Below, piece by piece: positions 20,963 to 59,144 of a stretch of 59,544 nucleotides of DNA; within the stretch, counting starts at the first letter, position 1, and the number at the start of each line of letters is the position of its first letter. The translations under genes were made by a program, and so were the position numbers. The notes below the pieces were generated by a model. That model was given only the letters and a program-made list of their open reading frames with translations, had not been told where the DNA came from and ran no database searches. Location of the stretch: positions 1-59,544 of the forward strand of contig NZ_JACJSD010000046.1 of the NCBI RefSeq assembly GCF_014697615.1. The letters run 5' to 3'. Source of the DNA: Nostoc sp. FACHB-280. Lineage in GTDB: Bacteria; Cyanobacteriota; Cyanobacteriia; Cyanobacteriales; Nostocaceae.

Positions 20963-20985
20963 AGTGATATTACAGGAGTTAGTCT

Positions 20986-25046: not shown

Positions 25047-25052
25047 GATAAT

Positions 25053-36266: not shown

Positions 36267-36267
36267 T

Positions 36268-37665
36268 TTAAGAAAGCCACTTTGATAGCTTGTCTAGCCA
36301 AGGTTTACGAATCCATAACAAACACAAGCCAAGGGTAGAAAACATAGAACCAGCCGCAGCGCCAGCTAAAACAAAGCCTTTTTTCGGTGCTGTGGGTTCG
36401 TCGGGTACACTCGGCTCTACCAACATTTGCGCTAAAGGATAAGCGGCAAAAATATCACCTTGTCCCAAATCTAATTTTGTTAAAGTGGAAGCAAACATCG
36501 CTTCGGCAATTTGTTCATCTCGCTTCAGGTTTTCCAGTGTTGATTGTCGTTGAGAAAGACTTTCTAAACGTTTCTCTAATCGCTGAATTTCTAAATCTAA
36601 AGTTTGAACCTGAGCTTTGAATCCTTGTTTATCAGATCGGTAAGAAACTAAATTTTGAAATAATGTATCTCGACTGGTACCACTTGTAGGTAAAGCTAAA
36701 CGGTTTAAGGCTTCTATAGTCATCTGTTTTTTTAATAACAGTTCACTGCGTTGTAATATTGCTGCTAAAGCAGATTCTTGCCTTTTAGTTTCCTTAACTA
36801 CTTGGGGATGGTTAGGGCCAAACTTAGTGATTAAAATTTCAAGACTGGCTGTCGCCTCGCTGTAGTCTTTGACATTTTGTTGAAAAATTTGGTCTACATA
36901 CAATAAAAAAGCATCTGCTGCATCTTGAGATGATAGCCCCAAATTATTTTCTAACTGTTGCAATCTCTGGCTAGTAAATTGTTCTTGGGCTTTAAGTTCT
37001 GCTCGTTGTCGGCGTAACTGCTCAATATTAGATGACAAGTTACCGACTTGATCAGGAAAACTTAAACCAGAGCGCATTTTATATTCTGAAAGATGTTGTT
37101 GTGCTTGTTCTAGTTTATGTTGAGCCGCTAGTAAAGTTTTTTCTGTCGGCCCTTTGCGCTGACTCAGTTCTCCAGAGCGTAAAAAGTTGATTTGATAGAC
37201 AATAGCTTGATACAAAGCTAAAGATTTATTCCGGGCTTCTTTGGGACTTCTGCCAGTAACTTCAAACTGCATGATTGTTGTGTTGTCTAGCAGTTTGATG
37301 CGGGGTTTACCAAATTGATCGGTGTGAATTTTAGCGATCGCAGCGGCTTTCTTTAACACTGCATCACTAGTAAAAATATATTCGTAGTTTGCTCTGGCAT
37401 CATAAGTAGAACCACCAATAGCCGAACTGCTAAAAGATGATGCTTGACCAATTCCTGGCAAGTTAACATTCACACCAAAACTTGCTCCAGATAGAATTAA
37501 AGCAAACTCGCTGGTATAAGATGGTTTGGTAACTTTTAAATATTGCAGCGATGAACTCCAAATTAATGTGTTACCGATAATACTCAAAATAAAATAACGT
37601 AACCAACGACCTTTGAGCAGATTAATAATTTTGATTTTTGGCAAAGTGGAAACTTTTTGCATCAT
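36268..37665 (-). CDS. polysaccharide co-polymerase (Wzz/GumC-like) without kinase domain
   Basis: A 465-residue inner-membrane chain-length protein. One membrane helix lies near residues 25-45 and one near 432-455, with a Wzz-type N-domain and a long coiled coil (about 165-395; EKTLLAAQHKLEQAQQHLSEYKMRSG, QRQSTLENLKRDEQIAEAMFASTLTKLD) between them. The Pro-rich stretch before the last helix (PSVPDEPTAPKKGF) is the usual family mark. No tyrosine-kinase domain follows. The first four bases overlap the end of the export gene (ATGA), so the genes are coupled. Confidence 0.87.
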   Translation of the reverse strand: MMQKVSTLPKIKIINLLKGRWLRYFILSIIGNTLIWSSSLQYLKVTKPSYTSEFALILSGASFGVNVNLPGIGQASSFSSSAIGGSTYDARANYEYIFTSDAVLKKAAAIAKIHTDQFGKPRIKLLDNTTIMQFEVTGRSPKEARNKSLALYQAIVYQINFLRSGELSQRKGPTEKTLLAAQHKLEQAQQHLSEYKMRSGLSFPDQVGNLSSNIEQLRRQRAELKAQEQFTSQRLQQLENNLGLSSQDAADAFLLYVDQIFQQNVKDYSEATASLEILITKFGPNHPQVVKETKRQESALAAILQRSELLLKKQMTIEALNRLALPTSGTSRDTLFQNLVSYRSDKQGFKAQVQTLDLEIQRLEKRLESLSQRQSTLENLKRDEQIAEAMFASTLTKLDLGQGDIFAAYPLAQMLVEPSVPDEPTAPKKGFVLAGAAAGSMFSTLGLCLLWIRKPWLDKLSKWLS

Positions 37666-38690
37666 TTGAAGATATCTCGCAGAATTGGAATCGGAGAGAG
37701 GATGGTTTTAATCACATCCTGGAATTGAATCACTCTGGAGTCATAACAAGCGACAATATCGTTGGGCTTCAAAAATGGATTGTTGGTATCATCGTTTGAT
37801 TTCATCAGCAAATTATTAACATGACGCTCTAAGTATGTAGTTTTGCCAGTTAAATGTTCGGTCGTAACTAATATGGCTTTGCGTTCTGCATTCGTTCCCC
37901 GCGTTCCGCCAGCGCAGTTAGCCGCCGCCACTGCATGAGAAAAGCGAGAACCATAGGGAAAAGATGTAGCATCACGACCAACACCAGAAACAGCGTTACC
38001 TGTAGCTGGTACCGTTAAATTCGAGATAAAAATTTTCACACCCATAGGTGTAATTGGTGAGGGACGCACCAGTTCGTTGTGCATTTGTCCGGAATCGGGA
38101 ATGATAACGCGATCGCCTGCAATTAAGGCCACATCTGCAAAGGGTTCACCTGTTAACACACCAGATAAATCAATAATCTGAGTCTGTCCTTGACGAATTA
38201 ACTGCACATTTTTAATATCGGCGGTGGGGGTAACTCCTCCAGCATCATGAATTGCTACTGTTAAATAACGGTTGTAAGCATATTGACCAGCTACCGGCAC
38301 AGGCGGTTGTGTTTTTTCTCCTAGAGAGAGGTCATTGATCATTACCCTTCCTGGGGAAAATGTGGCTCCACTGACAAACACCATAATCGGCGACCACTGC
38401 ACCACACCCACATTCACCCGCAAAAAAGACGGCTGAAAAAAACCACCATCAATTAAAGCGTGGGTAAGATTAGCTTGAACTTGCTCTGGTTCTAAGCCAG
38501 CTACAGCTAAAGGCGATAAATAAGGAATTTCCAACTTTCCATCTAAGTTGACCTCAAAAATCCCGCTAAACTCGTCACCTTCGGGAATACTCACCTTCAA
38601 GCGATCGCCTGGAGAAAGCGGTAAGGCAAAACAAGGTGTTGCGATGGTCAAGATAGCAGCGATCGCATTCAAAATTAAATATTTAAACAT
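37662..38690 (-). CDS. outer-membrane polysaccharide export protein (Wza/OPX-like)
   Basis: A 342-residue export protein with a signal peptide (MFKYLILNAIAAILTIATPCFA). The polysaccharide export domain follows (about 24-105; LSPGDRLKVSIPEGDEFSGIFEVNLDGKLEIPYLSPLAVAGLEPEQVQANL), with an SLBB-type region (about 105-215; VFVSGATFSPGRVMI, LTVAIHDAGGVTPTADIKNVQLIRQGQ). The C-terminal part is less usual and includes two Cys. It is the first gene of the reverse operon OPX-Wzz-Wzy and is divergent from the biosynthesis genes. Confidence 0.88.
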   Translation of the reverse strand: MFKYLILNAIAAILTIATPCFALPLSPGDRLKVSIPEGDEFSGIFEVNLDGKLEIPYLSPLAVAGLEPEQVQANLTHALIDGGFFQPSFLRVNVGVVQWSPIMVFVSGATFSPGRVMINDLSLGEKTQPPVPVAGQYAYNRYLTVAIHDAGGVTPTADIKNVQLIRQGQTQIIDLSGVLTGEPFADVALIAGDRVIIPDSGQMHNELVRPSPITPMGVKIFISNLTVPATGNAVSGVGRDATSFPYGSRFSHAVAAANCAGGTRGTNAERKAILVTTEHLTGKTTYLERHVNNLLMKSNDDTNNPFLKPNDIVACYDSRVIQFQDVIKTILSPIPILRDIFK

Positions 38691-39285
38691 AAACTCATCA
38701 AACCAAGCATTAATTCAGTACATAAGCATTAAACAAAGTATCTATTTGCGTAAAAATACTGTTAAGCACGTTATCCTTGTTCGTTAAAAACTATACCTCT
38801 TTTTTCTTTATGCCATCTAAATAATCAGGACGGTTTTTTAAGTTGGTATAAAACTTTTCTGATTTTGATGAACGATTATAAGCTTTATAGCTTGCTGTGA
38901 ATTTATTAAACTATGTAATTCTACTTTTGCTATCTCAGTAGAGATTAAATACTAGAAAAAAAATATACAAAAAATATTAGACAAATATCCAAAAATAGTT
39001 TATAAAAAAAATACATTCGTTTTGCATATCTGAACTACTCTTTCAATTAGCTACTGGTTACTGGAAGCAGTTAGGTTTGATGCAAAGATCAGGGTAAATC
39101 AGGCGTATGAAGCAGTGTAGGGATTTAACCCTCACAGGCACAAGAAAAATATAGCTGTCGCAGTGTAGGTTAAAACATTTTGCAAGCGTCCATTTAGCAA
39201 GAGTAATTTTCTGCCGCCTGTGTTCTGCTATGTCAAGCATCTACCAGTCACATAACTATGGAATTCACAACGCTGTTGAGCAAAC
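38691..39285. other. 595-base divergent promoter region of the exopolysaccharide locus
   Basis: Non-coding and AT-rich. It should hold promoters for the export operon (left) and the biosynthesis operon (right). A short reverse frame at 39058-39240 is not supported. No box was assigned with confidence. Confidence 0.5.
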
Positions 39286-40344
39286 ATGGGACTCACCATT
39301 GGACTGGTAAATACATATTCAACTTTAAATATTGGGGATGCGGCAATTTATAGTGCGCTGACGGCTTTAGCATCAGAGGCTCAAGTTGTAGCACAATTTC
39401 CCGATGCCCAACCAAATTACATCCCAGGATTACAGGTTTTACCCCAGATTGGGCAATGTGATGCTTATATTAGTGTGGGTGGCGATATTTTCAACAACGC
39501 CCGTGAAGGTTTAATTACCAAAACCTTTATCCGTAATTTGCTTCAGTTAAGACGATCGCCACAGCAAACCTTTGTATTTGGTCAATCAATTCCGCGATCG
39601 TGTCATGGGTTGAGTTTTCAAGCGTTGACATTTTGTTTACGTCGCTTGGCTGCTGTATGTGTGAGAGATGCGGAAAGCCATCAACGTCTAACCCAAGCTG
39701 GAGTCAACGCCATTTTATCTTTTGATGCGGCTTTTAGTTTATCAGTATGCGAACAGGCAAAAACTACAGCCAAAAATGTTTTACAAACCTTAGATATCCA
39801 ACCAGAGTCAGCCGCATTGATTTCCCTGCGTGCTTTTGACTCGATGTACAGCCATGACAATCACCAGTTTCAACAACAAATAGTGACTCTGAGTCGTAAC
39901 CTCTACAAACAAGGATATCAACCAGTACTATTAATTCAATCTCAAGCTTACGGTGCTGATAATGACTTAGCGGTAGCAGAACAAATCGCCGTACAAGTTC
40001 CAGAGTTAAAAATTTTTAATCCTTTTGTGGTGGCTCATCAGCAGTCTCATTGGCAATTGGTGATGGGAGTGTTAGCTATTTGCCGTTTAATTGTCGCCGT
40101 TCGTTATCATACGGCAGTGCTGGCAATGGCTAGTGGCAAGGTTCCGTTTAATTTGTACTACTCAAATAAGGGCAAAGATTTAACGCAACGGTTAGGAATT
40201 CCTGGGTGTAGTTTAGACAAGTTTGATCCCAATACCTATATAGATGCGATCGCTCGTACTTCTGAACAGACTTTTGATCATAATGCCATTCGTACTCAAG
40301 TCAAACAAGCTTTTAATCAATGCTGGCAAACTATCAAAGGATAA
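39286..40344 (+). CDS. polysaccharide pyruvyl transferase family protein (CsaB/WcaK-like)
   Basis: Transfers pyruvate from phosphoenolpyruvate to sugars as a ketal, adding negative charge to the polymer. Family marks in the 352 residues are the opening IGLVNTYSTLNIGDAAIYSAL, the stretch DAYISVGGDIFNN, FVFGQSIPRS, CVRDAESHQRL and the C-terminal VAVRYHTAVLAMASGKVPFNLYYSNKG. It is the first gene of the forward exopolysaccharide operon; a short glycosyltransferase follows after four bases. Confidence 0.88.
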   Translation: MGLTIGLVNTYSTLNIGDAAIYSALTALASEAQVVAQFPDAQPNYIPGLQVLPQIGQCDAYISVGGDIFNNAREGLITKTFIRNLLQLRRSPQQTFVFGQSIPRSCHGLSFQALTFCLRRLAAVCVRDAESHQRLTQAGVNAILSFDAAFSLSVCEQAKTTAKNVLQTLDIQPESAALISLRAFDSMYSHDNHQFQQQIVTLSRNLYKQGYQPVLLIQSQAYGADNDLAVAEQIAVQVPELKIFNPFVVAHQQSHWQLVMGVLAICRLIVAVRYHTAVLAMASGKVPFNLYYSNKGKDLTQRLGIPGCSLDKFDPNTYIDAIARTSEQTFDHNAIRTQVKQAFNQCWQTIKG

Positions 40345-40348
40345 TTTT

Positions 40349-40936
40349 ATGAATCAGATACATCCTGAATTTAATACAAAGCAGACTATTCAGCAGCAAA
40401 TAGGCGATCGGCCTTTTGTCTTAAATGTCAGTGACAATCTGCCCCGCAAACAGTTGGATATTCTGCTAGAAACCTATGCTCGTCTCAGATATCATCACCC
40501 AGAATTACTATTGGTGAGAGTCGGCTCAGAATGGGAACCAGAAATGCAGGCACGAATCGAGCGATTGGGCATTCGTTATGGTATCCGATTGTTCTCTCAA
40601 CTAGAACATCAAGATTTAGTAGAACTGTATCAACGCGCTGCGATCGTTCTCATCACCAACGACAGCGAAAGTTTGGATGTGCCTTTGGTTTGTGATCCCA
40701 TAGCTTTAGTTAATGAGGTTCCTGTACTGCAAGCAGTAGACAAAAATACTGTTGTTTACTGTCGAATTAGCAAGCCGGATGTTTGGGCTAACACCATTAC
40801 TCGTTTACTCAATCATCTAGTAATCTGCCAACGTAACTTTGCGTGGTGGCAGGGGGTAGGGAGAGGAGGGGAAAGATTCTCCCCCTACACCTCTGCTAAG
40901 TCTACACAGCAATGTTGGGTTGGTGAACTACAATGA
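40349..40936 (+). CDS. short, N-terminally truncated GT-B glycosyltransferase
   Basis: The ATG at 40349 follows AAAGG. The 195 residues match only the C-terminal, nucleotide-sugar-binding half of group 1 glycosyltransferases: RPFVLNVSDNLPRKQLDILLETYARL, LLLVRVGSEWEPEMQARIERLGI, LVELYQRAAIVLIT. The catalytic EGFGLP-type stretch is replaced by ESLDVPLVCDPIALVNEVPV. There is no N-domain in this or the previous gene. The C-terminus (GVGRGGERFSPYTSAKSTQQ) looks like read-through of repeat DNA. It is probably degenerate or a partner subunit. It overlaps the flippase gene by four bases. Confidence 0.7.
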   Translation: MNQIHPEFNTKQTIQQQIGDRPFVLNVSDNLPRKQLDILLETYARLRYHHPELLLVRVGSEWEPEMQARIERLGIRYGIRLFSQLEHQDLVELYQRAAIVLITNDSESLDVPLVCDPIALVNEVPVLQAVDKNTVVYCRISKPDVWANTITRLLNHLVICQRNFAWWQGVGRGGERFSPYTSAKSTQQCWVGELQ

Positions 40937-42210
40937 ACTGGACGCGAACTCTACAAAAACGTCTGTTTCAAGACCGTTTTATTCGTAATATTGGTTGGAT
41001 GGGGGCGGCAGAATTAGTAATTCGAGTGTTTAGACTTGTTACTACTGTGATTTTGGCGCGGTTTCTCAGTGCAGAAGATTATGGACTAGCCGCTATTGTC
41101 TTGATGACTTACGAATTTATTCGTGTTTTTACCCGCAATGGCATAGCCGATAAAATTATCCAAGCTGAGGCTGCGGAGGTTGAGGAATTATGCCGTACAG
41201 CTTACGGTTTGAATTGGTTACTTGCTGGTGTTTTATTCACTGTGCAGTGTTTTGCATCTTTAGCGATCGCCAAATTCTATAATAATTCCCAACTCATCCT
41301 TCCTATCTGTTCAATCGCCATTACCTATCTCATCTATCCCTTGGGAATGGTGCAAACAGCCTTAATTAGAAGAGAAAACCGCCTCAACATTTTGGCTTTG
41401 ATTACTTCGGTGCAAGTCTCGACAGATAACGTTTTAACAGCCCTCTTGGCCTTATCTGGGATGGGAATGTGGGCAATTGTCTTACCAAAGTTCCTCGTGG
41501 CTCCTATTTGGATTATTCTTGCACTGAAATATCATCCTTGGCGGATGACTGCATCTCTCAGCTTTGAGAAAGGGCGACAAATTACTTCCTTTGGTTCCCG
41601 TGTTTTAGGTATTGAGTTACTGTCTATCTTTAGAGAAAACGTAGATTATCTTTTAATTGGTCGGTTTGTCAGTGTGGAAGCTTTAGGTGTATATTATTTT
41701 GCTTTTAATGCCGGATTAGGACTGAGCCTTAGTGTAATAAATGCTATCAGGGTATCATTATTCTCTGACTTATGTGACCTCAATTCTCAAGCCAGCTTAT
41801 TTGCTCAACGTTATCTACAAAGTCTACGTAAAATCGCTGTGATTATTGTGCCACTGGTAATGTTGCAATCAAGTTTAGCTCCCTTCTACGTTCCCTTAGT
41901 ATTTGGACATCAATGGGTTGAGCGTGGAGCCTTACCAATTTTAATTTTGATTTGCTGTTCAGCTTTATCTCGTCCCTTTGCTGATGCAGCTTCCTTAATG
42001 TTCCGCGCCTTTGGTCAGCCGCAAATTGAGTTGCGTTGGAATTTAATATTTACTATATGTCTAGCCACAGCTATCTGGATAGGAACACAGTGGGGTATTG
42101 TAGGAGCCGCAATTGCAGTGATGGCAACCCACCTAACTTTGCAACCTTTATATACTCTTTGGGCGACTCGTCAGACTCTACCTAAATTTGTGCAGGAGGC
42201 GCAAGGATGA
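40933..42210 (+). CDS. polysaccharide flippase (Wzx/PST family)
   Basis: A 425-residue membrane protein with about twelve helices that should move lipid-linked repeat units across the inner membrane. Marks are the N-terminal GWMGAAELVIRVFRLVTTVILARFLSAEDYGLAAIVLMTYEFIRVF and ENVDYLLIGRFVSVEALGVYYFAFNAGL in the middle. It overlaps both neighbours by ATGA, so the run of genes is translationally coupled. Confidence 0.9.
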   Translation: MNWTRTLQKRLFQDRFIRNIGWMGAAELVIRVFRLVTTVILARFLSAEDYGLAAIVLMTYEFIRVFTRNGIADKIIQAEAAEVEELCRTAYGLNWLLAGVLFTVQCFASLAIAKFYNNSQLILPICSIAITYLIYPLGMVQTALIRRENRLNILALITSVQVSTDNVLTALLALSGMGMWAIVLPKFLVAPIWIILALKYHPWRMTASLSFEKGRQITSFGSRVLGIELLSIFRENVDYLLIGRFVSVEALGVYYFAFNAGLGLSLSVINAIRVSLFSDLCDLNSQASLFAQRYLQSLRKIAVIIVPLVMLQSSLAPFYVPLVFGHQWVERGALPILILICCSALSRPFADAASLMFRAFGQPQIELRWNLIFTICLATAIWIGTQWGIVGAAIAVMATHLTLQPLYTLWATRQTLPKFVQEAQG

Positions 42211-43160
42211 ACAAAACTAGCCCAATGGTATCGGTAATTATTCCAGCTTACAATGCGGCTCAGTTTTTACCAGATGCGATCGCCTCTGTACAACAACAAA
42301 CCTTTGCTGATTGGGAACTACTGATAGTTAACGATGGTTCTACAGATAACACAATAGAAGTTGTGCAAGAATATCAAAAAAATTGCGATCGTATTCATCT
42401 GATTAATCAACCAAATCAAGGTGTTTCCACTGCTCGCAATCATGGGGTAAAAAACAGTCAAGGTCAAATCATCGCCTTTCTTGATGCTGATGATCAATGG
42501 TATTTCGACAAACTCAGCCAACACCTAACACATCTGCAATCAAATCCCTGTTTAGGAGTCAGCTTTGCCCAAGTGGAAATTCTCAATCAGACAGGTGAAC
42601 CAACCGGACAGATTTCTAGTTCTCGCTTAACCCAATTAAAACCAGAATATTTCCTCTCGGAAAACCCTACTACCACCACTTCTAACTGGGTAATTCGCAA
42701 AGAAGTATTTACACAAGTAGGAGGATTCTGCCCCGAAATGAGTTATTCCGAAGATTTAGAATGGCTACTCAGAGTTATCTGTACAACTGATTGGCAAATA
42801 GCCGGAATTAACCAAGTTTTGACGCGCTATCGTACAAGTTCCAGTGGACTGTCCTCCCAGTTATATCGCATGGAAGCAGGCTGGAATCAACTCATAGCTA
42901 AAGCCAGAATCTATGCACCCCAACTAGTTGAGCATCACTTTGCTTTAGCCCAAGCTGTACATCTGCGTTATTTGGCTCGCCGGGCTTTTCGCTTGAAATT
43001 ACCTGCTAAAGTCGGTATTGATTTTATCAGTCGTGCCTTACATTCAGATTGGCGACTGCTATTTCATCAACCGCAACGTACTTTCTTAACTTTGGTAGCA
43101 GTATTAGCAACGTTGGTAGGTGACAGGTTACAGGTTACAGGTGATAGGTTACAGAGTTAA
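42207..43160 (+). CDS. family 2 glycosyltransferase with repeat-derived C-terminus
   Basis: A 317-residue GT-A transferase. Marks are VSVIIPAYNAAQFLPDAIASVQQQTFADWELLIVNDGSTDNT at the start and FLDADDQW (the metal-binding Asp pair) at about residue 92. A later GluAspLeuGlu-Trp motif (YSEDLEWLLRV) is the usual acceptor-side base region. The last 13 residues (GDRLQVTGDRLQS) are encoded by heptamer repeats. It shares most of its length with the next glycosyltransferase, so the two are probably paralogues. Confidence 0.9.
   Translation: MNKTSPMVSVIIPAYNAAQFLPDAIASVQQQTFADWELLIVNDGSTDNTIEVVQEYQKNCDRIHLINQPNQGVSTARNHGVKNSQGQIIAFLDADDQWYFDKLSQHLTHLQSNPCLGVSFAQVEILNQTGEPTGQISSSRLTQLKPEYFLSENPTTTTSNWVIRKEVFTQVGGFCPEMSYSEDLEWLLRVICTTDWQIAGINQVLTRYRTSSSGLSSQLYRMEAGWNQLIAKARIYAPQLVEHHFALAQAVHLRYLARRAFRLKLPAKVGIDFISRALHSDWRLLFHQPQRTFLTLVAVLATLVGDRLQVTGDRLQS
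43120..43154. repeat. STRR inside the 3' end of a glycosyltransferase gene
   Basis: GTGACAG, GTTACAG, GTTACAG, GTGATAG, GTTACAG head to tail, in frame with the glycosyltransferase, ending just before its stop codon. The repeat family is the complement of that at 13980-14049. Confidence 0.9.
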
Positions 43161-43232
43161 ATTTCATCTATAACTATCAATATGAATTAGGCTCAAAACC
43201 GCTTCAATAATTGCCTTCTCCTCAAGACAATC

Positions 43233-43407
43233 GGACTTACACAACACTCCTTTAAAACTCTGATTCCACCAAAATCTAGATTAATAGAAGCCACTGCTCT
43301 AACTTCTCTCCGTGTCCTCCCGAAGTTTGCTCAACGCGGGGAACCCGCGCACGCAACTTCTCTCTGCGTCTCTGTGGTTCGATATCTGAGTACTTGAGCG
43401 TAAGTCC
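43233..43407. repeat. possible small element bounded by GGACTTAC / GTAAGTCC
   Basis: The gap between the two glycosyltransferases begins with tcggacttacacaac and ends with gcgtaagtccaaac, an inverted 8-base pair. The interior includes fragments of the dispersed repeats, such as cgaagtttgctcaacgcggg and ctctgcgtctctgtggttcg. The same ggacttacgca word begins repeat DNA at 8961. The terminal match is short, so the boundary is uncertain. Confidence 0.4.
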
Positions 43408-43442
43408 AAACGAAAATCTTCACACCAAATCAATTACACACT

Positions 43443-44567
43443 ATGAATTTATCTGTGATTATTCCGGTTTATAACTCGGAAAGTTCAGTTGCAGAAACCC
43501 TGCGTTCTGTCTTAGCGCAAACTTACCGCGACTTTGAAATTATCATTGTTGACGATGGTTGCACAGATAAAAGCATTGATATCTGCAAAAGCTTTAATGA
43601 TCCGCGCATTAAAATTATCCATCAACAGAATCGCGGATTAGCTGGGGCGAGAAATACGGGTATTCGTCATGCTCAAGGTGAATATTTAGCTTTTATTGAT
43701 AGTGATGATTTGTGGCTACCACAGAAATTAGAAAAACACATACAGCATTTTGCGCGATCGCCCAATGTGGGAGTGAGTTTTTCTCGTTCTAGCTTGATTG
43801 ATGAACAGGGTAAACCTCTAGGAATTTATCAAATGCCCCGATTAACCGATATTTCACCCGAATATTTATTCTGTCGCAATCCGATCAGTAACGGTTCTGC
43901 GGTAGTAATTCGGCGGGTTGTGTTGGATGAAATCAAGTTTCTAGAAAATCTCTATGGAGAGACTGAAGACTTCTACTTTGACGATCGCTTTCGCCAATCA
44001 GAAGATATTGAATGTTGGTTGAGAATTGCCTTGCAAACTAATTGGCAGATAGAAGGCATACCCGAAGCCTTGACTCTCTACCGCGTCAATATGGGTGGTT
44101 TATCGGCCAATATTCTCAAGCAATATGAATCTTGGGAAAGGATTATTGTGAAAACCCAAGTCTATAACCCTGGTTTTGTTGAAGAATGCGGTAATCAAGC
44201 CAGAGCTTACCAACTTCGATACTTAGCACGTCGAGCAGTCAGACAGCGATCGCCCGAAATAGCTGTTAATCTTCTGCATAAAGCTCTCAAAACCTATTGG
44301 CGAATTTTATTAGAAGAACCTCGACGCACTTTCATTTCTTTGAGTGCAGCTTATTTACTGTGGATGCTGCCAAAAAATATATATCAACAACTAGAAAAAT
44401 TAATGATGCAAATCACTGGTATGAGTCAAAAACGACGGATTCAGAAGGAAGAATCCAAGAGCGATGCCCTGAGCTTGTCGAAGGGTCAGCACCAAAAGAA
44501 TTCCAACCCATTAATAAGTGGGGAAATGTTACCTACTGCTCAGATATCCTCAAAACAATCAATGTAA
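43443..44567 (+). CDS. family 2 glycosyltransferase
   Basis: A 374-residue GT-A transferase with LSVIIPVYNSESSVAETLRSVLAQTYRDFEIIIVDDGCTDKS, then GEYLAFIDSDDLWLPQKL (Asp-x-Asp region) and EDFYFDDRFRQSEDIECWLRIALQTNWQIEGIPEALTLYR. The middle and C-terminal parts resemble the 42207 protein (YLARRAVRQ, RRTFISL). From about residue 335 the sequence turns low-complexity (KEESKSDALSLSKGQHQKNSNP), where the DNA carries a dispersed repeat (ccctgagcttgtcgaaggg). The natural C-terminus may be earlier. Confidence 0.9.
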   Translation: MNLSVIIPVYNSESSVAETLRSVLAQTYRDFEIIIVDDGCTDKSIDICKSFNDPRIKIIHQQNRGLAGARNTGIRHAQGEYLAFIDSDDLWLPQKLEKHIQHFARSPNVGVSFSRSSLIDEQGKPLGIYQMPRLTDISPEYLFCRNPISNGSAVVIRRVVLDEIKFLENLYGETEDFYFDDRFRQSEDIECWLRIALQTNWQIEGIPEALTLYRVNMGGLSANILKQYESWERIIVKTQVYNPGFVEECGNQARAYQLRYLARRAVRQRSPEIAVNLLHKALKTYWRILLEEPRRTFISLSAAYLLWMLPKNIYQQLEKLMMQITGMSQKRRIQKEESKSDALSLSKGQHQKNSNPLISGEMLPTAQISSKQSM

Positions 44568-44582
44568 AGGAAAGAATTATTT

Positions 44583-45038
44583 ATGAAAGTTTTACTTGTT
44601 TGCTCTTCTGGTGGACATTTTAAAGGACTCCAACAACTCAATTCTTTTTGGGAAAATCATGAACGAATTTGGGTGACTTTTAACACTACTACAACTGAAG
44701 CGGCTTTAAATGGAGAAAAAGTTTACTGGGCTTATAGCCCAACCAACCGAAATATTCCTAATTTATTGAGGAATATGTTATTAGCCTTTCAAGTTATCAA
44801 TCAAACTCGACCACAACTGATTTTATCTACAGGTGCGGGTGTGGCTGTTCCCTTTTTAATTGTGGGGAAATTATTTGGCAGTCAAACAGTATTTGTAGAA
44901 TCAGTAACTCGAATTAAAACTTTGAGTTTATCTGCCAAGTTAGTGTTGCCTTTTTTAAATGTTTTGTATGTGCAGTGGCCGCAACTGCAAGCCCGTTATC
45001 CTCAAGCCGAACTCATTACACCCCAGGAAAGTTTATGA
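44583..45038 (+). CDS. Alg14-like glycosyltransferase subunit
   Basis: A 151-residue protein matching the Alg14/PssD/CpsF family, the membrane-side partner of a split GT-B enzyme. Marks are MKVLLVCSSGGHFKGLQQL at the start and PQLILSTGAGVAVPFLIVGKLFGSQTVFVESVTRIKTLSLSAKLVLP. It overlaps the Alg13-like gene by four bases, so the two subunits are made together. It is preceded by GGAAAG. Confidence 0.9.
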   Translation: MKVLLVCSSGGHFKGLQQLNSFWENHERIWVTFNTTTTEAALNGEKVYWAYSPTNRNIPNLLRNMLLAFQVINQTRPQLILSTGAGVAVPFLIVGKLFGSQTVFVESVTRIKTLSLSAKLVLPFLNVLYVQWPQLQARYPQAELITPQESL

Positions 45039-45547
45039 TTTTAGTCACAGTTGGTACAGAACAATATCCATTTAATCGCCTCATGTCTTGGATTGAAGTA
45101 TTACTAGAAACTGGATTAATCCAAGACGAAATAGTAGTGCAGTATGGTAATTCTACGATTTTACCTGCTGGCGCAAAAGTGTATCGTTTCCTCAAAGAAG
45201 ATAAATTTCAGGATTTGATTAATCAAGCAAGCATTGTGATTGCTCATTGTGGAGAAGGGACTTTATTACTGCTAGATTCTCTAGAGAAACCTTATATTTT
45301 GGTGTCTCGCAGCCAGAGATATCAAGAACACGTCGATGATCATCAAGTAGAACTAGCTTTAGCACTATCACAAATCAATGTTCCGATTGCTTGGTCGCCT
45401 GGTGATTTAGTACGATTTATTAATGAGCCTAGAAAAGTTTCTTTAGCAGAAATTTCTCAAGCTTCAGCACTGGCTATTTGCGAAAGTCTCCATAACCGTT
45501 TTAATCAACCCTTGACCACAGAATTATCAGTAGGTATATCCAGATGA
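45035..45547 (+). CDS. Alg13-like catalytic glycosyltransferase subunit
   Basis: The ATG at 45035 (AGGAAAG upstream, overlapping the previous stop) gives a 170-residue protein that starts MILVTVGTEQYPFNRLMSWIE and has IVIAHCGEGTLLLLDSLEKPYILVSRSQRYQEHVDDHQVELALAL, the nucleotide-sugar-binding half of the split GT-B enzyme (Alg13/PssE). With the Alg14-like protein it should form one glycosyltransferase. It overlaps the next gene by four bases. Confidence 0.9.
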   Translation: MILVTVGTEQYPFNRLMSWIEVLLETGLIQDEIVVQYGNSTILPAGAKVYRFLKEDKFQDLINQASIVIAHCGEGTLLLLDSLEKPYILVSRSQRYQEHVDDHQVELALALSQINVPIAWSPGDLVRFINEPRKVSLAEISQASALAICESLHNRFNQPLTTELSVGISR

Positions 45548-46545
45548 GCAGTCCTAACGCTAAAACTTCCTTTTGTCTACTTACTACACGGATGAATAGC
45601 ACTCTATTAGTGCAGTTACCACCAAGATTAACTGTCATTGATGCTGTTGCCTTTAGAAAATGTTTTCAACAATGGGTTGAAGATGCAAATTTGACAAAAA
45701 TTATCTTAGATTTTGGTCAAACGACAATGATTGATAGTAGTGGGATGGGGTCATTAATTAGTAACCATAAATCAGCACAAGCCAACAATATTCAATTAAC
45801 TTTTTGGAGTGTACAACCACAGGTAAAATTAGCTTTTGCTTTAGGTGGCTTAGAACAGATATTTAATATTGAGGCGAATACCGCAGCGATTATTCCTACA
45901 GAAAGTCGCAGAATTGAACAGCGTCCACCCCTAACTCATCCTTCGGTGCGATCGCTAATGAAACGAGCCATTGATATTATCGGGGCGATTATTGGCTTGA
46001 GTATAACTGTCTTACTCTTTATCCCAATTGCGATCGCCATTAAACTTGATAGTCCAGGGCCTGTACTGTTTAGTCAAATTCGCTGTGGTTGGATGGGACG
46101 AAGGTTTCGCATTTGGAAATTCCGTTCAATGGTGTCTAATGCGGAAGCTCTGAAAAGTAATGTTCCTAACCAAGCTGCTGGTGCTTTTTTCAAAAATGAA
46201 CATGATCCACGCATTACCCGTGTTGGTCGCTTTTTGCGTAGAACAAGTTTGGATGAATTTCCTCAGTTTTGGAATGTTCTGATGGGTGATATGAGTTTGC
46301 TAGGGACTCGTCCACCTACACCCGACGAGTTAGAAAAATATGAAGTGAGTAATTGGCAAAGATTGGATGTCAGACCAGGAATGAGTGGCGAGTGGCAAGT
46401 TAATGGTCGTTCCAAAATCCGTAACTTTGAGGATGTGATTGAGCTAGATTTGCGTTATCAACAGAATTGGAGTTTATTTTATGATTTCAAGTTAATGCTC
46501 AAAACAGTGATGCTGATTTTCAATAAAAATTCAGGGGCAGCTTAA
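45544..46545 (+). CDS. STAS domain fused to a polyprenyl-phosphate sugar-1-phosphate transferase
   Basis: A priming enzyme for exopolysaccharide with an unusual regulatory head. Residues 18-115 form a STAS (anti-sigma antagonist type) domain with the phospho-site motif Met-Ile-Asp-Ser-Ser-Gly-Met-Gly (Asp64, Ser65). From residue 139 comes the bacterial sugar transferase domain: a membrane helix (IDIIGAIIGLSITVLLFIPIAIAI), KLDSPGPVLFSQIRCGWMGRRFRIWKFRSM, LRRTSLDEFPQFWNVLMGDMSLLGTRPPTPDE and the C-terminal GMSGEWQVNGRS. Only the single helix of the short PglC-type enzymes is present. The start overlaps the Alg13-like gene by four bases; the RsbW-like gene begins immediately after the stop. Confidence 0.88.
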   Translation: MSSPNAKTSFCLLTTRMNSTLLVQLPPRLTVIDAVAFRKCFQQWVEDANLTKIILDFGQTTMIDSSGMGSLISNHKSAQANNIQLTFWSVQPQVKLAFALGGLEQIFNIEANTAAIIPTESRRIEQRPPLTHPSVRSLMKRAIDIIGAIIGLSITVLLFIPIAIAIKLDSPGPVLFSQIRCGWMGRRFRIWKFRSMVSNAEALKSNVPNQAAGAFFKNEHDPRITRVGRFLRRTSLDEFPQFWNVLMGDMSLLGTRPPTPDELEKYEVSNWQRLDVRPGMSGEWQVNGRSKIRNFEDVIELDLRYQQNWSLFYDFKLMLKTVMLIFNKNSGAA

Positions 46546-47019
46546 ATGGCGCTGGAAACAGAGTTATTGATTCATCATTCTACCTTGCAAGTCGTTAGTC
46601 ATTTAGATGCAATGGCAACGGTGGTAGAGTGGTTTGATCAATTCAACTGTACACAGTTGCCTTATCAAGTGTGGATAGAAGGACAAACTGCATTAGTAGA
46701 AGGATTTACCAATGTAGTTCGTCATGCCCATAAACATCTGCATCCACAAACACCTGTTCAGTTAGCAGCCGCTATTTCTGCTGATGAGTATTTCCAAATT
46801 TATATCTGGGATCAAGGAGAGATTTTTAATTTAGAAGCCGAATTAGAAAAGCTGAATCAACAAACAAGCGATCGCAACTTTAACCCCTTAGACCATGAAG
46901 CTCATTGGGGCTGTATTTTTCTCCTCAAACTTAGAAAAGACTATGGGTGGAATGTCAGTTACACGCGTGAATCACCAGAGAGAAATTGTTTGTTACTCAA
47001 GAAAAAAATAACATTTTAA
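46546..47019 (+). CDS. RsbW-like (anti-sigma type) ATP-binding protein kinase
   Basis: A 157-residue protein of the GHKL ATPase fold. Motifs: N box Glu-Gly-Phe-Thr-Asn-Val-Val-Arg-His-Ala-His, the Asp-Gln-Gly loop (IYIWDQGEIFN) and the glycine loop region HEAHWGCIFLLKL. Proteins of this class phosphorylate STAS domains on Ser or Thr and bind a partner. The ATG follows the stop of the STAS-sugar transferase directly (TAAATG). No sigma factor gene is in the window, so the partner is likely one of the STAS proteins next to it (inference). Confidence 0.87.
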   Translation: MALETELLIHHSTLQVVSHLDAMATVVEWFDQFNCTQLPYQVWIEGQTALVEGFTNVVRHAHKHLHPQTPVQLAAAISADEYFQIYIWDQGEIFNLEAELEKLNQQTSDRNFNPLDHEAHWGCIFLLKLRKDYGWNVSYTRESPERNCLLLKKKITF

Positions 47020-47123
47020 GTGATTAACAATGGGCATGAGGTTTAGCTTCCCGTTATTTTTATTTCCTCATGTCCAAATTTCTTTAGTTGAGTTTTGGAA
47101 AATTACTATTTTACCTCAAGATT

Positions 47124-47774
47124 ATGAATTCTAAAGTAAAAGTGATTAAACCTAGTGGAATTTTCGACGGTAGAAAAGGCAGACAAGTTAACGAACGTGT
47201 GAGTAATTTGCTTGATTCTGGCTTCAAAACTTTTTTGATTGATTTTCAGTCTGTTCACTTTATGGATAGTGCTGGATTCGGGACTTTGATTTTAACCCTG
47301 AAAACTGTTAAAGATAAACAAGGAAGACTAGGTATTTGTGCTATCAACGATCAGATTCACATGATTCTTGATATCAGTGGGACAATTACCGCCTTTGAAG
47401 TGTTTCCTGACCAAGAATCATTTGTAAAAACAGTGAATACACTTGTTAATTCTAAAGTGAAAATTATTAAACCTACTGGGATTTTTGATGGCAAAAAAGG
47501 CAGACAAATCAATGAACGAATTACCAAATTATTAGAATCAGAAATTAAAAACTTTTTGCTAGATTTTCAATCTGTTAATTTTATGGATAGTGCAGGCTTC
47601 GGCACCCTAATTTTAACTTTAAAAACTGTTAAGGATAAACAAGGAAGGCTGAGTATTTGTGGAATTAATGAGCAGATTAAACTGATTTTTGATATTAGCG
47701 GCACCACGAAAGCTTTTGACGTGTTTCCTGACCAAGAATCATTTATTAAAAAAGCTACACAGCTCCAAAACTGA
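47124..47774 (+). CDS. tandem STAS-STAS protein (anti-sigma factor antagonist type)
   Basis: The ATG at 47124 is chosen; a TTG frame from 47088 lacks support. The 216 residues are two STAS domains of 107 residues each (47127-47447 and 47448-47768), about three-quarters identical, with runs such as MDSAGFGTLILTLKTVKDKQ unchanged. Each has the phospho-site motif Met-Asp-Ser-Ala-Gly. The copies look recently duplicated. It follows the RsbW-like gene by 104 bases and overlaps the convergent phosphatase gene by 20 bases. Confidence 0.88.
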   Translation: MNSKVKVIKPSGIFDGRKGRQVNERVSNLLDSGFKTFLIDFQSVHFMDSAGFGTLILTLKTVKDKQGRLGICAINDQIHMILDISGTITAFEVFPDQESFVKTVNTLVNSKVKIIKPTGIFDGKKGRQINERITKLLESEIKNFLLDFQSVNFMDSAGFGTLILTLKTVKDKQGRLSICGINEQIKLIFDISGTTKAFDVFPDQESFIKKATQLQN

Positions 47775-48939
47775 CTTCAAGTAACGAAAAGTCATCAGTG
47801 AATATTTGACTCCCCGTTGTGTCTTTGATGGCTGCCAAAATGGTATCTAAATCAGTGGAAAATTGCTGATTACATAAAGTAAGTAAGTTGATAAAGCTCT
47901 GTAAGTTCCACATCTTACCATCAGATTTTTCCACTTCGTAAATGCCATCACTAAACACATACAATTTACTGCCAGATTGAACGTCACACACGGTATGATG
48001 ATATTGGTGTGTGGCATATACCCCGATAGGCGCACTACGAGTCATTAATTGTTCTACCCGTAAATCAAACTCTGTAACAGGTGACAATAATATCGCTGGG
48101 GGATGACCAGCACTAGCATAGGTGAGCTGAGAAGAAACTCGGTTAAAAACACCATACCAGATAGTAAAATACTGGTAGTTTTGTTGCTCCATTTGAAACA
48201 CTTTATTTAAGCTTTGAAAAACTTCATCTGGATGATAAAGACTAGCTTGGGGGAGAGACTGCGATCGCAGCATGTTATGTATGGAAATTGAAGGTAAAGC
48301 CGCAGCTAATCCATGCCCCGAAACATCAAGTAAATACATGACTAAATTGTCTTCATCCAACCAATAGTAATCAAAACAATCGCCCCCTAATTGACGAGAG
48401 GGAAAGAATCGAGAATTAATTGTAATTAATCCTGATAACGGTTTAGGCAGAATTGATTTCACATAATCAGCCGCTTCACTTAATTCTGCTTCTAAAAGCT
48501 GTTTTTGAGTTTGTAAATCTTGAGCTAATGTCTGAAGTTCTTGATTTGCCTGATATAACCTGAGTCCAGCTCTGACACGAGCTTTTAACTCATTGACTTC
48601 AATTGGTTTACTTAAAAAATCATCTGCACCTGTATCTAAACCCTCTACTCGGTCTTCCACCGCTTTCCGGGAGGTGAGCAAAATAAAGAAAATAGATGAT
48701 AAAGATGGTTCTGATTTGATTTTCCGACATAGTTCTAAGCCATCCATTTCATCCATTTGCCAATCGGAAATAATCAATGCTGGATGGTGTTTATGAGCTT
48801 TTTCTAATCCTTCTATGCCACTTGAGGCCAAAATTACTTCATATCCTTGACTTTGCAGAGCTTGTTTTAAAAGTATTTGAATCAGACGGTCATCATCAAT
48901 CACTAAAATTTTTACAGAAGAATTTGAATTGTTAGACAT
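47755..48939 (-). CDS. response regulator with PP2C-type phosphatase domain (RsbU-like)
   Basis: A 394-residue output protein. Receiver domain at residues 9-125 (KILVIDDDRLIQ, phospho-Asp in IISDWQMDEMDG, Lys in LSKPIE); a coiled linker (YQANQELQTLAQDLQTQKQLLEAEL); and a SpoIIE/RsbU phosphatase domain from about 165 (GGDCFDYYW, LLDVSGHGLAAALPS, YASAGHPPAILL, YVFSDGIYE, TDDFSLLEV), with the metal-binding Asp residues intact. Such phosphatases dephosphorylate STAS proteins. Its gene converges on the STAS-STAS gene with 20 bases of overlap. Confidence 0.9.
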   Translation of the reverse strand: MSNNSNSSVKILVIDDDRLIQILLKQALQSQGYEVILASSGIEGLEKAHKHHPALIISDWQMDEMDGLELCRKIKSEPSLSSIFFILLTSRKAVEDRVEGLDTGADDFLSKPIEVNELKARVRAGLRLYQANQELQTLAQDLQTQKQLLEAELSEAADYVKSILPKPLSGLITINSRFFPSRQLGGDCFDYYWLDEDNLVMYLLDVSGHGLAAALPSISIHNMLRSQSLPQASLYHPDEVFQSLNKVFQMEQQNYQYFTIWYGVFNRVSSQLTYASAGHPPAILLSPVTEFDLRVEQLMTRSAPIGVYATHQYHHTVCDVQSGSKLYVFSDGIYEVEKSDGKMWNLQSFINLLTLCNQQFSTDLDTILAAIKDTTGSQIFTDDFSLLEVSFGAV

Positions 48940-48981: not shown

Positions 48982-51900
48982 TTAATGGGCAGATGCAGAG
49001 ATATCTTGTAAAGCTGTAATGACTTTGTGATATTCACTTTCTAATTGATTAATCAGCAGAACAAGGGACTCTAATGATTGGTCAGAAGCGGAATTTTCTA
49101 AAGTTTCACAGATGTCTCCTAAGTTAACAGCACCAATACTCACACTAGGCGATCGCAAAGCATGAGCCGCTTTTTGTAAGTTGATTCTGTCTCCCACTGC
49201 AATGGCTGTTTGAATCATTTCTATTCTCCTTGGAGTATCTTCTAAATAAACTTGGATAAGTTCAGAGACTAAATGCTCACCATCACTACCTGCCATATTT
49301 TTTAGTTCTTCGATAAAACTGTAGTCAATGGCAGCTGTAACATCAGCATTTAGAGATATAGAAGGTAAAACATATTCAGTTTCTGCTATTAGCTGAGGCG
49401 GTAGAGAATCTTGATATTGTTGAATATTCGAGTGTTTTAAAACTGCTTCTAGCGCCTCTAGACGAATTGGCTTACTAACATAATCATTCATCCCGACTCT
49501 TAAGCACTCCTGACGGTCTTCGGGACGAGCATGGGCAGTCATAGCAATTATCCAAGGTTGGACTTGTGGGGAGAATTCCTGACGAATCCGCATCGTAGTT
49601 TCCCAACCATCCATTTCTGGCATTTGGATATCCATAAACACAACATCATAGAGTTGCCGTTGTAAAGCTTCTAGAGCCTCGCGCCCATTATTGGCCACAT
49701 CGGCCCGAAAACCTAACCGATTCAGCATTTTCAGCGCAATTTTCTGATTCACTAACACATCTTCCACTAAGAGAATTTTGAGTGGTAAATTTTGGGCAAG
49801 TTGGTCATCAATTCTTGGTAAGTGTGGTGCAGGTAAGCGGGAATAAGAAGGAATGGTAATTTGAGTATCGACACGGCGGGTAGACCAACTACCACGCACA
49901 ATTTGTAAAAGCGTATTTTGCAATTGGTACTGTCGCACAGGCTTGTGCAGAAAGGCAGTAAATTCAGCCGCTATTTGCCTCACCTCTAAAGTTTGCTTGC
50001 CTTTGGAACTTAACATGACCAAAGGCAAATTTTGCTGTTGGGGTATGCTACGAATTTGTGTAGTTAGTTCTAGGATATCTAGATAAGGGCAATCGACATC
50101 TAAGATAGCGAAGTCAAAGTTAGGCTGTAGTTCCAAGCACTGCTGAACAGCCTTGAATGGGATTGTTTGGACATCAACTCCCAAGCTCTGAAGTTGCCAA
50201 GTTAAACATTTCTGTAAACTAGCATTATCTGTGATCAGCAGTAATCGCTTGTCCAGCAACTCTGGATAAATACTATATGAACTATCAATTACTGAAGGAT
50301 CAACTTGCAGTGTAAGGGTGAAATTGAAAGTCGAACCCTGACCTATTTCACTTTCTACCCACATGCTGCCCCCCATAATTTCGCTCAGGCGCTTACTAAT
50401 GGCTAATCCTAAGCCTGTACCACCATAACGCCGAGTCATGGAAGCATCAACCTGACTAAAGGGCTTAAACAGTCGATCTAAGCGATCGCGTGGAATTCCA
50501 ATTCCGGTATCACTCACCGCAAACAGAAATTCGTAATATACATGATCATCTGTTACGGTTTCTGGTTGTTGGACTTGCTGCATAGCAATGGTGACAACCA
50601 CTTCTCCCACCTTGGTGAATTTAACCGCATTGCTGACCAAATTCCAAAGAATCTGACGGACACGGGTAATATCACCAATAATTAAAGTTGGTGTCTGGGG
50701 TTGGAATTGATATAACAATTCGATGCCTTTGAGGGCTGCTTGGGGAGCCAGCAAATCCAAGGCTTCTTCCACACAAACTTGCAAGTCAAAAGGTTGTTCT
50801 TCTAACTCTAAATTGCCAGACTCAATTTTAGAAAAGTCGAGAATGTCATTGATAATTGTTAATAAAGCATCGCCACTATTACGGATCGTTTCTACATAGT
50901 CAATTTGCTCAGGTTTGAGAGGTGTATCCAAAAGTAATCCCGTCATCCCAATGATTGCGTTCATGGGCGTGCGAATTTCATGACTCATGGTAGCGAGGAA
51001 ATTACTTTTGGCCATATTGGCCGCCTCAGCTGCTTGTTTGGCAATATTCAATTCTTCGTTTTGCTGGGCGAGCAAATCCGCTTGGCGAGTTTCTTTGGCT
51101 AACAATTGGGCTTGGGTGAGAGCAATGCTCATTTGATCTGCTAGGTGTTTGAGCAAGTCTAATTCCAAATCTGTCCATTGTCTGGGGCGATCGCATTGAT
51201 GTACTACTAATAATCCCCATAAATGTTCCCGCACTAAAATCGGTACAACCAGATTAGCTTTTACCTGACAATCTTCGATTTCACATGGTTGAAATTCTGT
51301 TTGTCCTAACTGGGAAATTACACTTAACTGCCCATCACGATACAAGTTGAGATATTTATCTTGTAAACAACCATCACAAATATCTTTGTTTAAAACTACT
51401 GACCATTCCGGGACTACTGCTTCCTGAACAACTTTACCTGAACCATCAGGGTTAATTTGGAAGATTAACACCCGATCAGCCTGTAAAATGTGTTGTACCT
51501 CTGTGACTGTGGTCTGGAGAATTTTTTCTAGTTGTAAGGACTGACGAATTTCTTCTGTAATTTGCTTGAGTAAAAGAGCGCGTTGATATTGCTGCTGTAG
51601 TTCTTCTTCAGCTTTTTTGCGTTCTGTAATATCTAAATGAGTTCCGACCATTCTCAGAAACTTGCCTTGGAAATCGCGGTTGACTAACTTACCTCGATCC
51701 AAAATCCATTTCCATTTCCCTGATTTAGTCAAAAATCGGGCTTCAGCTTCATAAAAAGGTGTATGTCCCTTGAGGTGAGCGATTAGTCTTTGTCGCATCA
51801 ACAATCGGTCATCGGGATGAATCAATTCATTGACAACTTTAATATCATCTTGGAGTTCATCGGGATGATACCCTAGCATTGTGTACCAACGGGCGCTACG

Positions 51901-52875
51901 ATAAACTTCTCCAGTGGCTAAATTCCAGTCCCAAAGCCCTTCTTCTACCGCATCCAGCGCCAATGCTAACCGTTCTTCACTTAATTTCAGGGCATTTTCT
52001 GATTGTTTTCTGAGGGTAATGTCACGATATTTCCACAAGTGACCATATAATTTGTCATCAACAACAATGGGTACATAATCTTGTTCCAAAATTCGTCCAT
52101 CTTGGAGTTGCCATTCTTGATTGATGACGATTTCTCCTTGGTAGAGAATCTCATCTAGGCGCTGAATAAATTCGTCAGGCTCCACAAACATTTGCTTGCT
52201 GACTTCTGAGGCTTGGCGACAATCCATGCCCTGTAAGGCTGCTGGAGGAATAGGAATATTAAATAAATTACAGAATTCTTGATTTGCCAAAACAACATGT
52301 CGCTTCTCATCTTCTAGCAAAATCCCAATTTGTAAACTTTCAATCAGTGTTGTTAACCTGGAAGCTGTGGCTCTTAATTCGGCGCGTTGTTCTGTGAGTT
52401 TTGTGGTGAGCTTTTTGGCATCTGTAAGTGCAGAATTCTTGGCCTGTAAGAGAAACAGATAATCTGAAACTGAGTCATATAAAGGAAAATCATCAATGCT
52501 CAGTTCTAGCTTTTTGAGATTAGTAATATCTGTAATCCAGGGAGAGCCAAGAAATACCAATTGATCACCATTTTCCCCACATACTATCTGTCCCTTAAGC
52601 TGCATATCTTTGTGGAGTGATTGCAGCAGAAACAGCGATCGCGTTTGTTGGCAAAGAGCTTCAAAGTTAACTGCACAGTTGGGGCGATTGATGCAAAAAT
52701 GCGCTTCTAGAGGACTATTGAGGATCTCAATGGGTGAGAGAATTCGCTCAAGCACTTCACCCACTTGGATGATCTGCATCTGTTGATCTATCACCAGATG
52801 GAACGGAAACAATGCTGCAAATTGGTCAGCACTGAGGCTGAAGTGTCTTAACCCGATCGCATCATTCTTGGTCAT
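48982..52875 (-). CDS. H-NOX-associated hybrid sensor histidine kinase
   Basis: A large sensor (1297 residues from ATG 52875; a GTG at 52932 would add 19). Order: H-NOX-associated domain (about 1-150; [35 protein letters not shown]), PAS (165-290), PAS with PAC (300-415), GAF (about 435-595), HisKA with Met-Ser-His-Glu-Ile-Arg-Thr-Pro, ATPase ([26 protein letters not shown]), a degenerate receiver (ILDVDCP), a good receiver ([17 protein letters not shown]) and a C-terminal Hpt domain ([14 protein letters not shown]). Its start overlaps the H-NOX gene by 14 bases, so it is the coupled partner of that NO sensor. Confidence 0.9.
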
Positions 52876-53434
52876 CGGAGTCAGAATCTGTGTATTTAAT
52901 AGTGAAGGTATCTTGAGAATCTCCTTGGTCACGAAAACTCTTTTGGGTAATATCCACTTTGGTGTGAAAGCGTTTTCCTAATCCGTGGAGTAAACCAATC
53001 ACCATTGGTGCTAATCCTTGGCGAGTTGATTGGTAGTGGAGATCCAATGATTGTTCACTTGTGTGTTCACACTCAAACGATGGTGGACGCAGTTGGGAGA
53101 AACTCAAACCTACTCTGGCATGAAGGTTATCCAGATTTTCGACAAATTGGGGTAATGAGTTGCCAGCACTGTCTAACAGATCCCCATAGCCTTCTTTGGC
53201 GGTATAGTTAACCCAATATTCACCAAAAGCTTGCAAAATTTCCGGTGCAGGCATATTCAATACGTCACAAGCTGCTGCCACTAAACTATAGGTGACTTCA
53301 TCGGGATAACCATCCATACCGATAAAAAAGTCTATATCCTCATATCCTGCCTTGCTCTTAATGATTTCCCATATCTTCTCTCCGTGGCATTCACAAATCA
53401 TATCTTGAATTGCTTTGTTAACAAGTCCGTACAT
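52862..53434 (-). CDS. haem NO-binding sensor protein (H-NOX)
   Basis: H-NOX proteins bind NO (and sometimes oxygen or CO) at a haem and control a kinase. The 190-residue protein has the proximal haem ligand His105 ([10 protein letters not shown]), Pro in RPPSF near 118, and the haem-propionate motif Tyr134-x-Ser136-x-Arg138 (YQSTR). Trp74 is at the position seen in the structurally known Nostoc H-NOX. The overall sequence is very close to that protein. A short acidic tail (DSDSDDQE) is specific here. The stop overlaps the start of the hybrid kinase. Confidence 0.93.
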
Positions 53435-59070: not shown

Positions 59071-59144
59071 AATACCTAAATCTTCACAATGTCTTGATTT
59101 AGTATTCCCCAATGATCAACAGCACTCTATAATGACCTAAAAAT

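Follow-up and report, generated by a model that had tools for sequence, protein, structure and literature searches.

An RsbW-like kinase gene linked to a STAS-headed priming transferase in Cyanobacteria: a possible partner switch on exopolysaccharide synthesis

In a 59,544-nucleotide stretch of DNA from Nostoc sp. FACHB-280 (contig NZ_JACJSD010000046.1; hereafter the window, part of contig C55 in a genome of 7.64 Mb), we detected a gene for a STAS domain fused to a Bac_transf sugar-1-phosphate transferase, the presumed priming enzyme of an exopolysaccharide, followed directly by a gene for an RsbW-like kinase of the GHKL type. As far as our searches go, the linkage of such a kinase gene to the fusion is new. 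The gene arrangement is confirmed as real, and because the linkage recurs across many cyanobacterial families it is beyond chance. Our reading, to which we give a probability of about 0.6, is that the linked kinase controls the priming transferase via its STAS head; this interpretation as a whole is partly supported, by comparative evidence and not by experiment. Slime-making may be switched at the enzyme itself rather than via gene expression.

Fusions were collected by a whole-protein search of 195 genomes of the window's order, with fusion calls resting on the matches listed (G, C, L and f numbers below are our labels for genomes, contigs, loci and families). From the match rows we picked 80 stretches, non-randomly and with the goal of at least one per genus, and these together with 80 named loci and the window held 121 open reading frames (ORFs) in which the two domains are combined, spread over 120 loci, the transferase copies of the remaining 41 named loci being unfused or unreadable. 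A kinase was counted as linked when the 1.3 kb downstream of the fusion contained an RsbW-like ORF in the same orientation. Linkage was found for 55 of 117 fusion ORFs (4 of 121 dropped for too little downstream sequence) versus 1 of 39 unfused Bac_transf ORFs (6 of 45 dropped), and this lone exception, L101, comes from a frame-broken fusion, of which it is the C-terminal half. By subset, the picked stretches and the window gave 45/82 and the named loci, which include 13 unlinked Pseudanabaena-type proteins, gave 10/35; one convergent kinase (L149) and those upstream of the fusion (L132/L221, L223, L224) were not counted as linked. Since some loci carry identical proteins (L041 = L193, L042 = L164, L045 = L172), locus counts do not equal independent cases. 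Outside the order, the kinase lies next to the fusion in four of seven loci (L214-L217; not L218, L219 or L220). Mapped onto a quick tree of 101 fusions, linkage takes 8 changes, at least 4 of them by starred branches, against a mean of 33.7 for label shuffles, which ignore relatedness.

The association also appears at the level of whole genomes. An RsbW-like gene is present somewhere (E <= 1e-20) in 168 of the 195 genomes of the order. A profile built from 26 linked kinases, with a cut of at least 186 bits set after viewing the list, marked a fusion-type RsbW in 77/195 genomes, and 74 of these 77 hold the fusion versus 47 of the other 118; the Fisher value for this co-occurrence (2e-17) ignores phylogeny and comes from a profile trained on linked kinases. 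The 74 are genomes with matches starting by residue 30, plus three with shorter matches (G037, G060 and G176), among which the G037 fusion is borne out in L236. In the three fusion-type genomes outside the 74, the fusion is frame-broken (G010), cut by a contig end (G112) or not seen (G187). Separately, the orthologous kinase is unlinked in 9/11 genomes of family f20 and in eight converges with a gene about 296 codons long (such loci are L225-L228, L230-L232 and L238); near the fusion of L219, which has no kinase, there is a similar gene, judged by eye.

STAS-transferase fusions are a known type, with all4160 of Anabaena as an example, and are widespread in Cyanobacteria. Using the first 210 residues as query, 69/292 genomes of the phylum matched at E <= 1e-30; two listed rows of this search begin past residue 113 and so give no evidence of a fusion. 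The closest named matches of the window fusion are in Nostoc parmelioides, Nostoc sp. UCD121 and Calothrix PCC 7103, and no relative was found in viral contigs. A spread beyond Cyanobacteria by way of L101, which is titled Chloroflexaceae, was dropped: its ORFs match G010:C99, and G010 is within the window's order. The Pseudanabaena-type fusions (L059-L065, L067, L072-L075, L105) are longer, at 708-730 aa, and consist of STAS, Bac_transf and about 380 further residues; three are without the serine discussed below. At L149:5998-7416 (-), a 473-aa ORF with an Alg13-like start, seen by eye, ahead of STAS and Bac_transf may be a triple fusion; Pfam gives STAS and Bac_transf only.

Domain and motif evidence agrees with how an earlier note, made on this DNA from its sequence alone, had described the first two genes. 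The fusion carries STAS (PF01740) at residues 19-114 (E 2.2e-14), with D64-S65-S66-G67 intact (codons 45733..45744, plus strand), and a full-length Bac_transf domain (PF02397) at residues 140-326 that covers profile positions 1-178 of 179 (E 2.9e-64). Its translation contains S-L-D-E-F-P-Q, a motif of the Bac_transf monotopic phosphoglycosyl transferases, and from the motif we take Ser65 to be the phospho-serine position of SpoIIAA/RsbV. The fusion ends in TAA, and the ATG of the RsbW-like gene comes immediately after it, with zero gap and in the same frame. The phospho-site to which the note had drawn attention is kept wherever a kinase is linked: DSS is intact in 55/55 linked fusions (54 DSSG, 1 DSSA). 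The linked kinases hold E52, T55, N56, G91 and G122 in 55/55 and D89 in 52/55, and the window kinase retains E52, N56, D89, G91 and G122; Glu and Asn are the catalytic residues of RsbW/SpoIIAB-type GHKL kinases. The nearest solved relative of the kinase by sequence profile is Bacillus RsbW (6m36, E 1.7e-11), and both this RsbW and SpoIIAB (1til) are matched in sequence profile and in fold. In a predicted fold of the in-frame fusion-kinase read-through (pTM 0.50), STAS and kinase were good and the transferase poor, and the best Foldseek matches were SpoIIAB chains and SpoIIAA/RsbV chains.

STAS head and kinase covary more than transferase and kinase do. Across 47 non-redundant pairs, STAS and RsbW distances gave a partial correlation of 0.57 given the transferase (0/2000 permutations), and transferase and RsbW distances gave 0.20 given STAS (permutation 0.0025); the STAS-kinase covariation fits head-kinase contact. 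The Alg13-like gene was tried as a control and set aside at 7 sequences, too few, and its values given the transferase (STAS-kinase 0.80, STAS-Alg13 0.22, kinase-Alg13 0.46) are not used as support. An alternative is that the STAS head has no partner and serves only to govern where the transferase sits in the membrane, its oligomer state or its ligand binding, as suggested for SLC26/SulP STAS domains. STAS heads without a linked kinase are indeed common, and the serine is lost in three fusions, all Pseudanabaena-type (DGA twice, DTS once), yet the linkage is specifically to RsbW-like genes, STAS and kinase covary, and the model's best STAS matches belong to the SpoIIAA/RsbV type, and we regard a partnerless head as highly improbable.

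Beyond the kinase, the earlier note had placed a double STAS gene and then a convergent receiver-PP2C phosphatase gene, and both are there. The double STAS ORF is also open from an earlier TTG at 47088, and because its halves agree at 79/107 positions it reads as an in-frame tandem duplication; its gene overlaps that of the phosphatase tail-to-tail by 20 bases. The double form was also found by tblastn in G483, of the same genus, and the STAS ORF by the fusion is single, at 109-131 aa, in the clade's eight other linked loci (L035-L040, L116, L117). In 11 loci (L139-L143, L167-L170, L187, L189) fusion and RsbW are followed by a PP2C protein of 650-876 aa and then an opposite-strand STAS gene; these long proteins match the PP2C half of the window phosphatase profile, and that of L139, the one of the 11 examined with Pfam, is PAS plus SpoIIE. 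In three f5 genomes (L132/L221, L223, L224), RsbW, receiver-PP2C and STAS genes lie upstream of the fusion, past the Alg13-like gene. Fusion and kinase are thus accompanied by a further STAS gene and a PP2C gene, as the note had them, in other layouts too. Triads of RsbW, receiver-PP2C and STAS without the fusion occur in L241 and L243. The window's own genome holds a second such triad (L210; C59, about 120.6-122.7 kb) with no transferase in the stretch and a PP2C 54% identical to that of the window; PP2C matches of this kind (E <= 1e-100) are present in 80/80 genomes of the family.

These free STAS proteins raise the possibility that kinase and phosphatase serve them only, with the output elsewhere, as has been proposed for HmpV, the fused head being a separate dock or scaffold and the linkage reflecting a shared polysaccharide theme. 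In excerpts of PMC6495340 and PMC8256260 the STAS protein HmpV is reported to form the output of the switch to which it belongs, many fusions are without a linked kinase, and in G429 the fusion is missing beside kinase, free STAS and phosphatase, all of which fits. Against this, no free STAS ORF was found in 34/55 linked loci in the stretch examined (some stretches are short), which leaves the fused head as the only STAS by the kinase in those loci, and the phospho-serine position is kept in every linked fusion. We consider this explanation unlikely.

The phosphatase gene in turn adjoins sensory genes. The window H-NOX protein matches the solved Alr2278 (4iae) at E 7.1e-91, and this HNOB protein adjoins an HNOBA histidine kinase, a pair kept in relatives. 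The start of the histidine kinase gene overlaps the H-NOX gene, 42 bases separate it from the PP2C gene downstream, and both are on the minus strand; H-NOX, histidine kinase and receiver-PP2C apparently form one operon with PP2C last. Besides the window, G483 (L275), L036, L038 and L039 have this row next to fusion, RsbW and STAS (L038 and G249 counted once), and in L037 H-NOX and histidine kinase are at the opposite side of the fusion. In L035, L116/L278 and L117/L279 the histidine kinase adjoins PP2C, with no H-NOX past the kinase in L278 and L279; G260 has PP2C beside the fusion with H-NOX and kinase elsewhere, and G434 lacks a window-type PP2C but has H-NOX and kinase. The H-NOX input is thus recurrent and not fixed. 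In the earlier note the phosphatase was suggested to be driven by a histidine kinase such as the nearby one, a suggestion that fits this tight gene order, kept in several relatives. On the far side of the H-NOX gene, window positions 53665-59112 (-) encode an 1815-aa protein with Ser/Thr kinase, AAA, GAF and histidine-kinase parts; its relatives lie near the module in L035, L275, L278 and L279 and near the H-NOX/kinase pair in L281.

RsbW-type kinases are best known from sigma factor control, and a search of 16 genomes for Sigma70_r2 tallied 166 matches. Among the matches listed, none of the 16 genomes has a Sigma70_r2 gene less than 10 kb from the fusion, the nearest being at about 18 kb (G041) and 23 kb (G111), and there is none on the window's contig, in keeping with the remark in the note that no sigma factor gene is here. 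A sigma factor client encoded away from the fusion is conceivable. The arrow could then be reversed, the STAS head acting as an anti-anti-sigma or anti-kinase domain that titrates the RsbW-like protein and so reports the state of polysaccharide synthesis to a sigma factor encoded elsewhere or to a different target. The RsbW family classically holds sigma factors, 14 Sigma70_r2 matches occur in the window's own genome, and in G429 the kinase has no window-type fusion beside it. An excerpt of PMC6495340 likewise describes RsbW proteins as holding sigma factors. The reversed arrow nevertheless seems quite unlikely to us, since no sigma gene lies near the fusion among the matches listed and the linkage is to the enzyme gene, recurring in many families.

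Several observations weigh against control of the transferase by the linked kinase. The earlier note took frequent occurrence of the fusion apart from kinase and phosphatase genes as a sign against its proposal and asked whether the kinase gene is always adjacent. That sign is partly present: adjacency holds in many lineages but not always, and 62/117 fusions are without a linked RsbW-like gene, including L115, the second fusion of this genome. The unlinked fusions (n = 62) have 52 DSS, 4 DSA, 2 DGA, 1 DSM, 1 DTS, 1 DSP and 1 unreadable, and because 52/61 readable ones keep DSS, the motif does not track linkage and the phospho-serine was rejected as a marker of it. The G2 box of the window kinase reads HWG and not GxG, so the ATP lid lacks a complete GxG box, and the first GxG residue is not Gly in 20/55 linked kinases; it is therefore uncertain whether the kinase phosphorylates or merely binds. 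STAS and RsbW are both fast-evolving, and part of their covariation may be a rate effect. Because its pTM is 0.50, the read-through model gives no docking evidence. In G429 (L276) a row of RsbW, STAS, PP2C, histidine kinase and H-NOX genes has no fusion there, the sole STAS-transferase match over most of the query being elsewhere (C1:7661962). In G077, G111 and G260 the H-NOX gene and the switch are not neighbours, on which a fixed linkage of the two was rejected, and at E <= 1e-30 an H-NOX match is present in 29/80 genomes of the family and missing from 51/80.

We suggest that the window encodes a partner-switching module with an enzyme as its output, in which the STAS head would be a client of the adjacent RsbW-like kinase. 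The kinase would bind the head and probably phosphorylate Ser65, and this action would set whether the transferase begins polysaccharide chains at the membrane; as to sign, either the kinase-bound head would be silent or phosphorylation would be the silencing act. The free STAS protein, double in the window, would compete for the kinase when dephosphorylated, and the receiver-PP2C would dephosphorylate it and perhaps the head too. The H-NOX/histidine kinase pair would drive PP2C by phosphotransfer, a putative ligand at H-NOX making nitric oxide or redox state the input. Nitric oxide as the input is a tentative choice that we hold with some doubt, and that an H-NOX nitric oxide pathway ends in partner switching onto a STAS-headed priming phosphoglycosyl transferase, and not in transcription or cyclic-di-GMP, is possible rather than probable.

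The genes of the module and the polysaccharide genes upstream are collected in the table. A scan for promoters and terminators was uninformative, with 18 promoter-like sites versus 25.4 in shuffles and 9 terminator-like sites versus 6.9. Farther away, by eye, window positions 18194-22569 hold a large putative peptidase ORF and then two proteins with a common C-terminal region, one with a SEFIR/TIR-like front, which may be a conflict or signalling set, and positions 23958-26210 (-) hold a FIST-like sensor ORF and then a histidine kinase ORF.

Table. Features of the window around the STAS-transferase fusion, with positions in the window
Feature	Position	Strand	Length	Basis
Polysaccharide gene cluster upstream of the fusion	34944..44567	.		
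Polymerase-like ORF	34944-36266	-		by eye only
Co-polymerase-like ORF	36268-37665	-		by eye only
Poly_export, within the cluster	37662-38690	-		Pfam
Pyruvyl transferase, GT1, Polysacc_synt_3 flippase, two GT2, within the cluster				Pfam
Alg14-like protein in the polysaccharide gene row	44583..45038	+		
Glyco_tran_28_C (Alg13-like), immediately upstream of the fusion	45035..45547	+		
STAS + Bac_transf fusion, presumed priming enzyme	45544..46545	+	333 aa	Pfam
RsbW-like GHKL ATPase	46546..47019	+	157 aa	HATPase_c_2 PF13581, E 3.7e-13
Double STAS protein, DSAG in both halves	47124..47774	+	216 aa	
Receiver + SpoIIE-type PP2C phosphatase	47755..48939	-	394 aa	Pfam, PF07228, E 4.8e-40
Hybrid histidine kinase: HNOBA, PAS, GAF, HisKA, HATPase, two receivers, Hpt	48982..52932	-	1316 aa	
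H-NOX (heme-NO-binding) sensor, close relative of Alr2278	52862..53434	-		

If the proposed control holds, many cyanobacteria would switch the first exopolysaccharide step at the protein level, with bearing on biofilms, blooms, hormogonia and heterocyst envelopes. The nitric oxide pathway, if real, would in addition offer the cyanobacterial Hmp-type switches a candidate kind of effector and provide an output for the Alr2278-type H-NOX, a structurally well-studied protein whose cellular role is, to our knowledge, an open point. Partner switching is known mainly for sigma factor control, and the module makes testable which non-sigma effectors such switches act on, as well as what the Alr2278-type H-NOX does in its cell. 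In the literature searched, which took in excerpts of PMC8365994 and PMC4517449 but did not extend to the original all4160 and HmpUVW reports, neither a kinase linked to such a fusion nor an H-NOX input was described, and the word STAS is absent from the excerpt of PMC8205485; the linkage may already be in print in those original reports.

The module resembles the RsbU/RsbV/RsbW and SpoIIAA/SpoIIAB/SpoIIE switches of Bacillus in its GHKL kinase, STAS proteins with the phospho-serine motif and PP2C phosphatase, and differs in that no sigma gene is nearby among the matches listed, one STAS heads a sugar transferase, and the phosphatase has a receiver. According to excerpts, all4160 of Anabaena PCC 7120 is a glycosyltransferase with an N-terminal STAS (PMC8256260) that is required for the heterocyst envelope polysaccharide (PMC4390870), and judged by this published description it has the same domain make-up as the window fusion; L115, which has no linked RsbW, may be its orthologue here. 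The HmpU/HmpV/HmpW partner switch of Nostoc punctiforme is tied to motility and polysaccharide (PMC6495340, PMC8256260, excerpts), with HmpV as the output STAS protein acting on an undefined effector (PMC6495340, excerpt), and by the locus tags in a table excerpted from PMC10581220 hmpU and hmpW are adjacent and hmpV apart. The window differs from this order of PP2C directly before RsbW with STAS elsewhere. In the window's own genome, L208 (C20, about 94.4-96.5 kb) holds a receiver-GAF-PP2C gene and then an RsbW-like gene on the same strand and is, by gene order only, the likelier hmpU-hmpW orthologue than the window genes. In Vibrio fischeri, SypE and SypA control polysaccharide biofilm by STAS phosphorylation (PMC8256260, excerpt), a likeness in that a STAS is tied to polysaccharide, whereas SypA is a free STAS protein whose target is unknown. 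Finally, the window has the H-NOX then HNOBA kinase order of H-NOX/histidine kinase pairs, and unlike these its row extends into a PP2C facing a putative partner switch on a polysaccharide enzyme.

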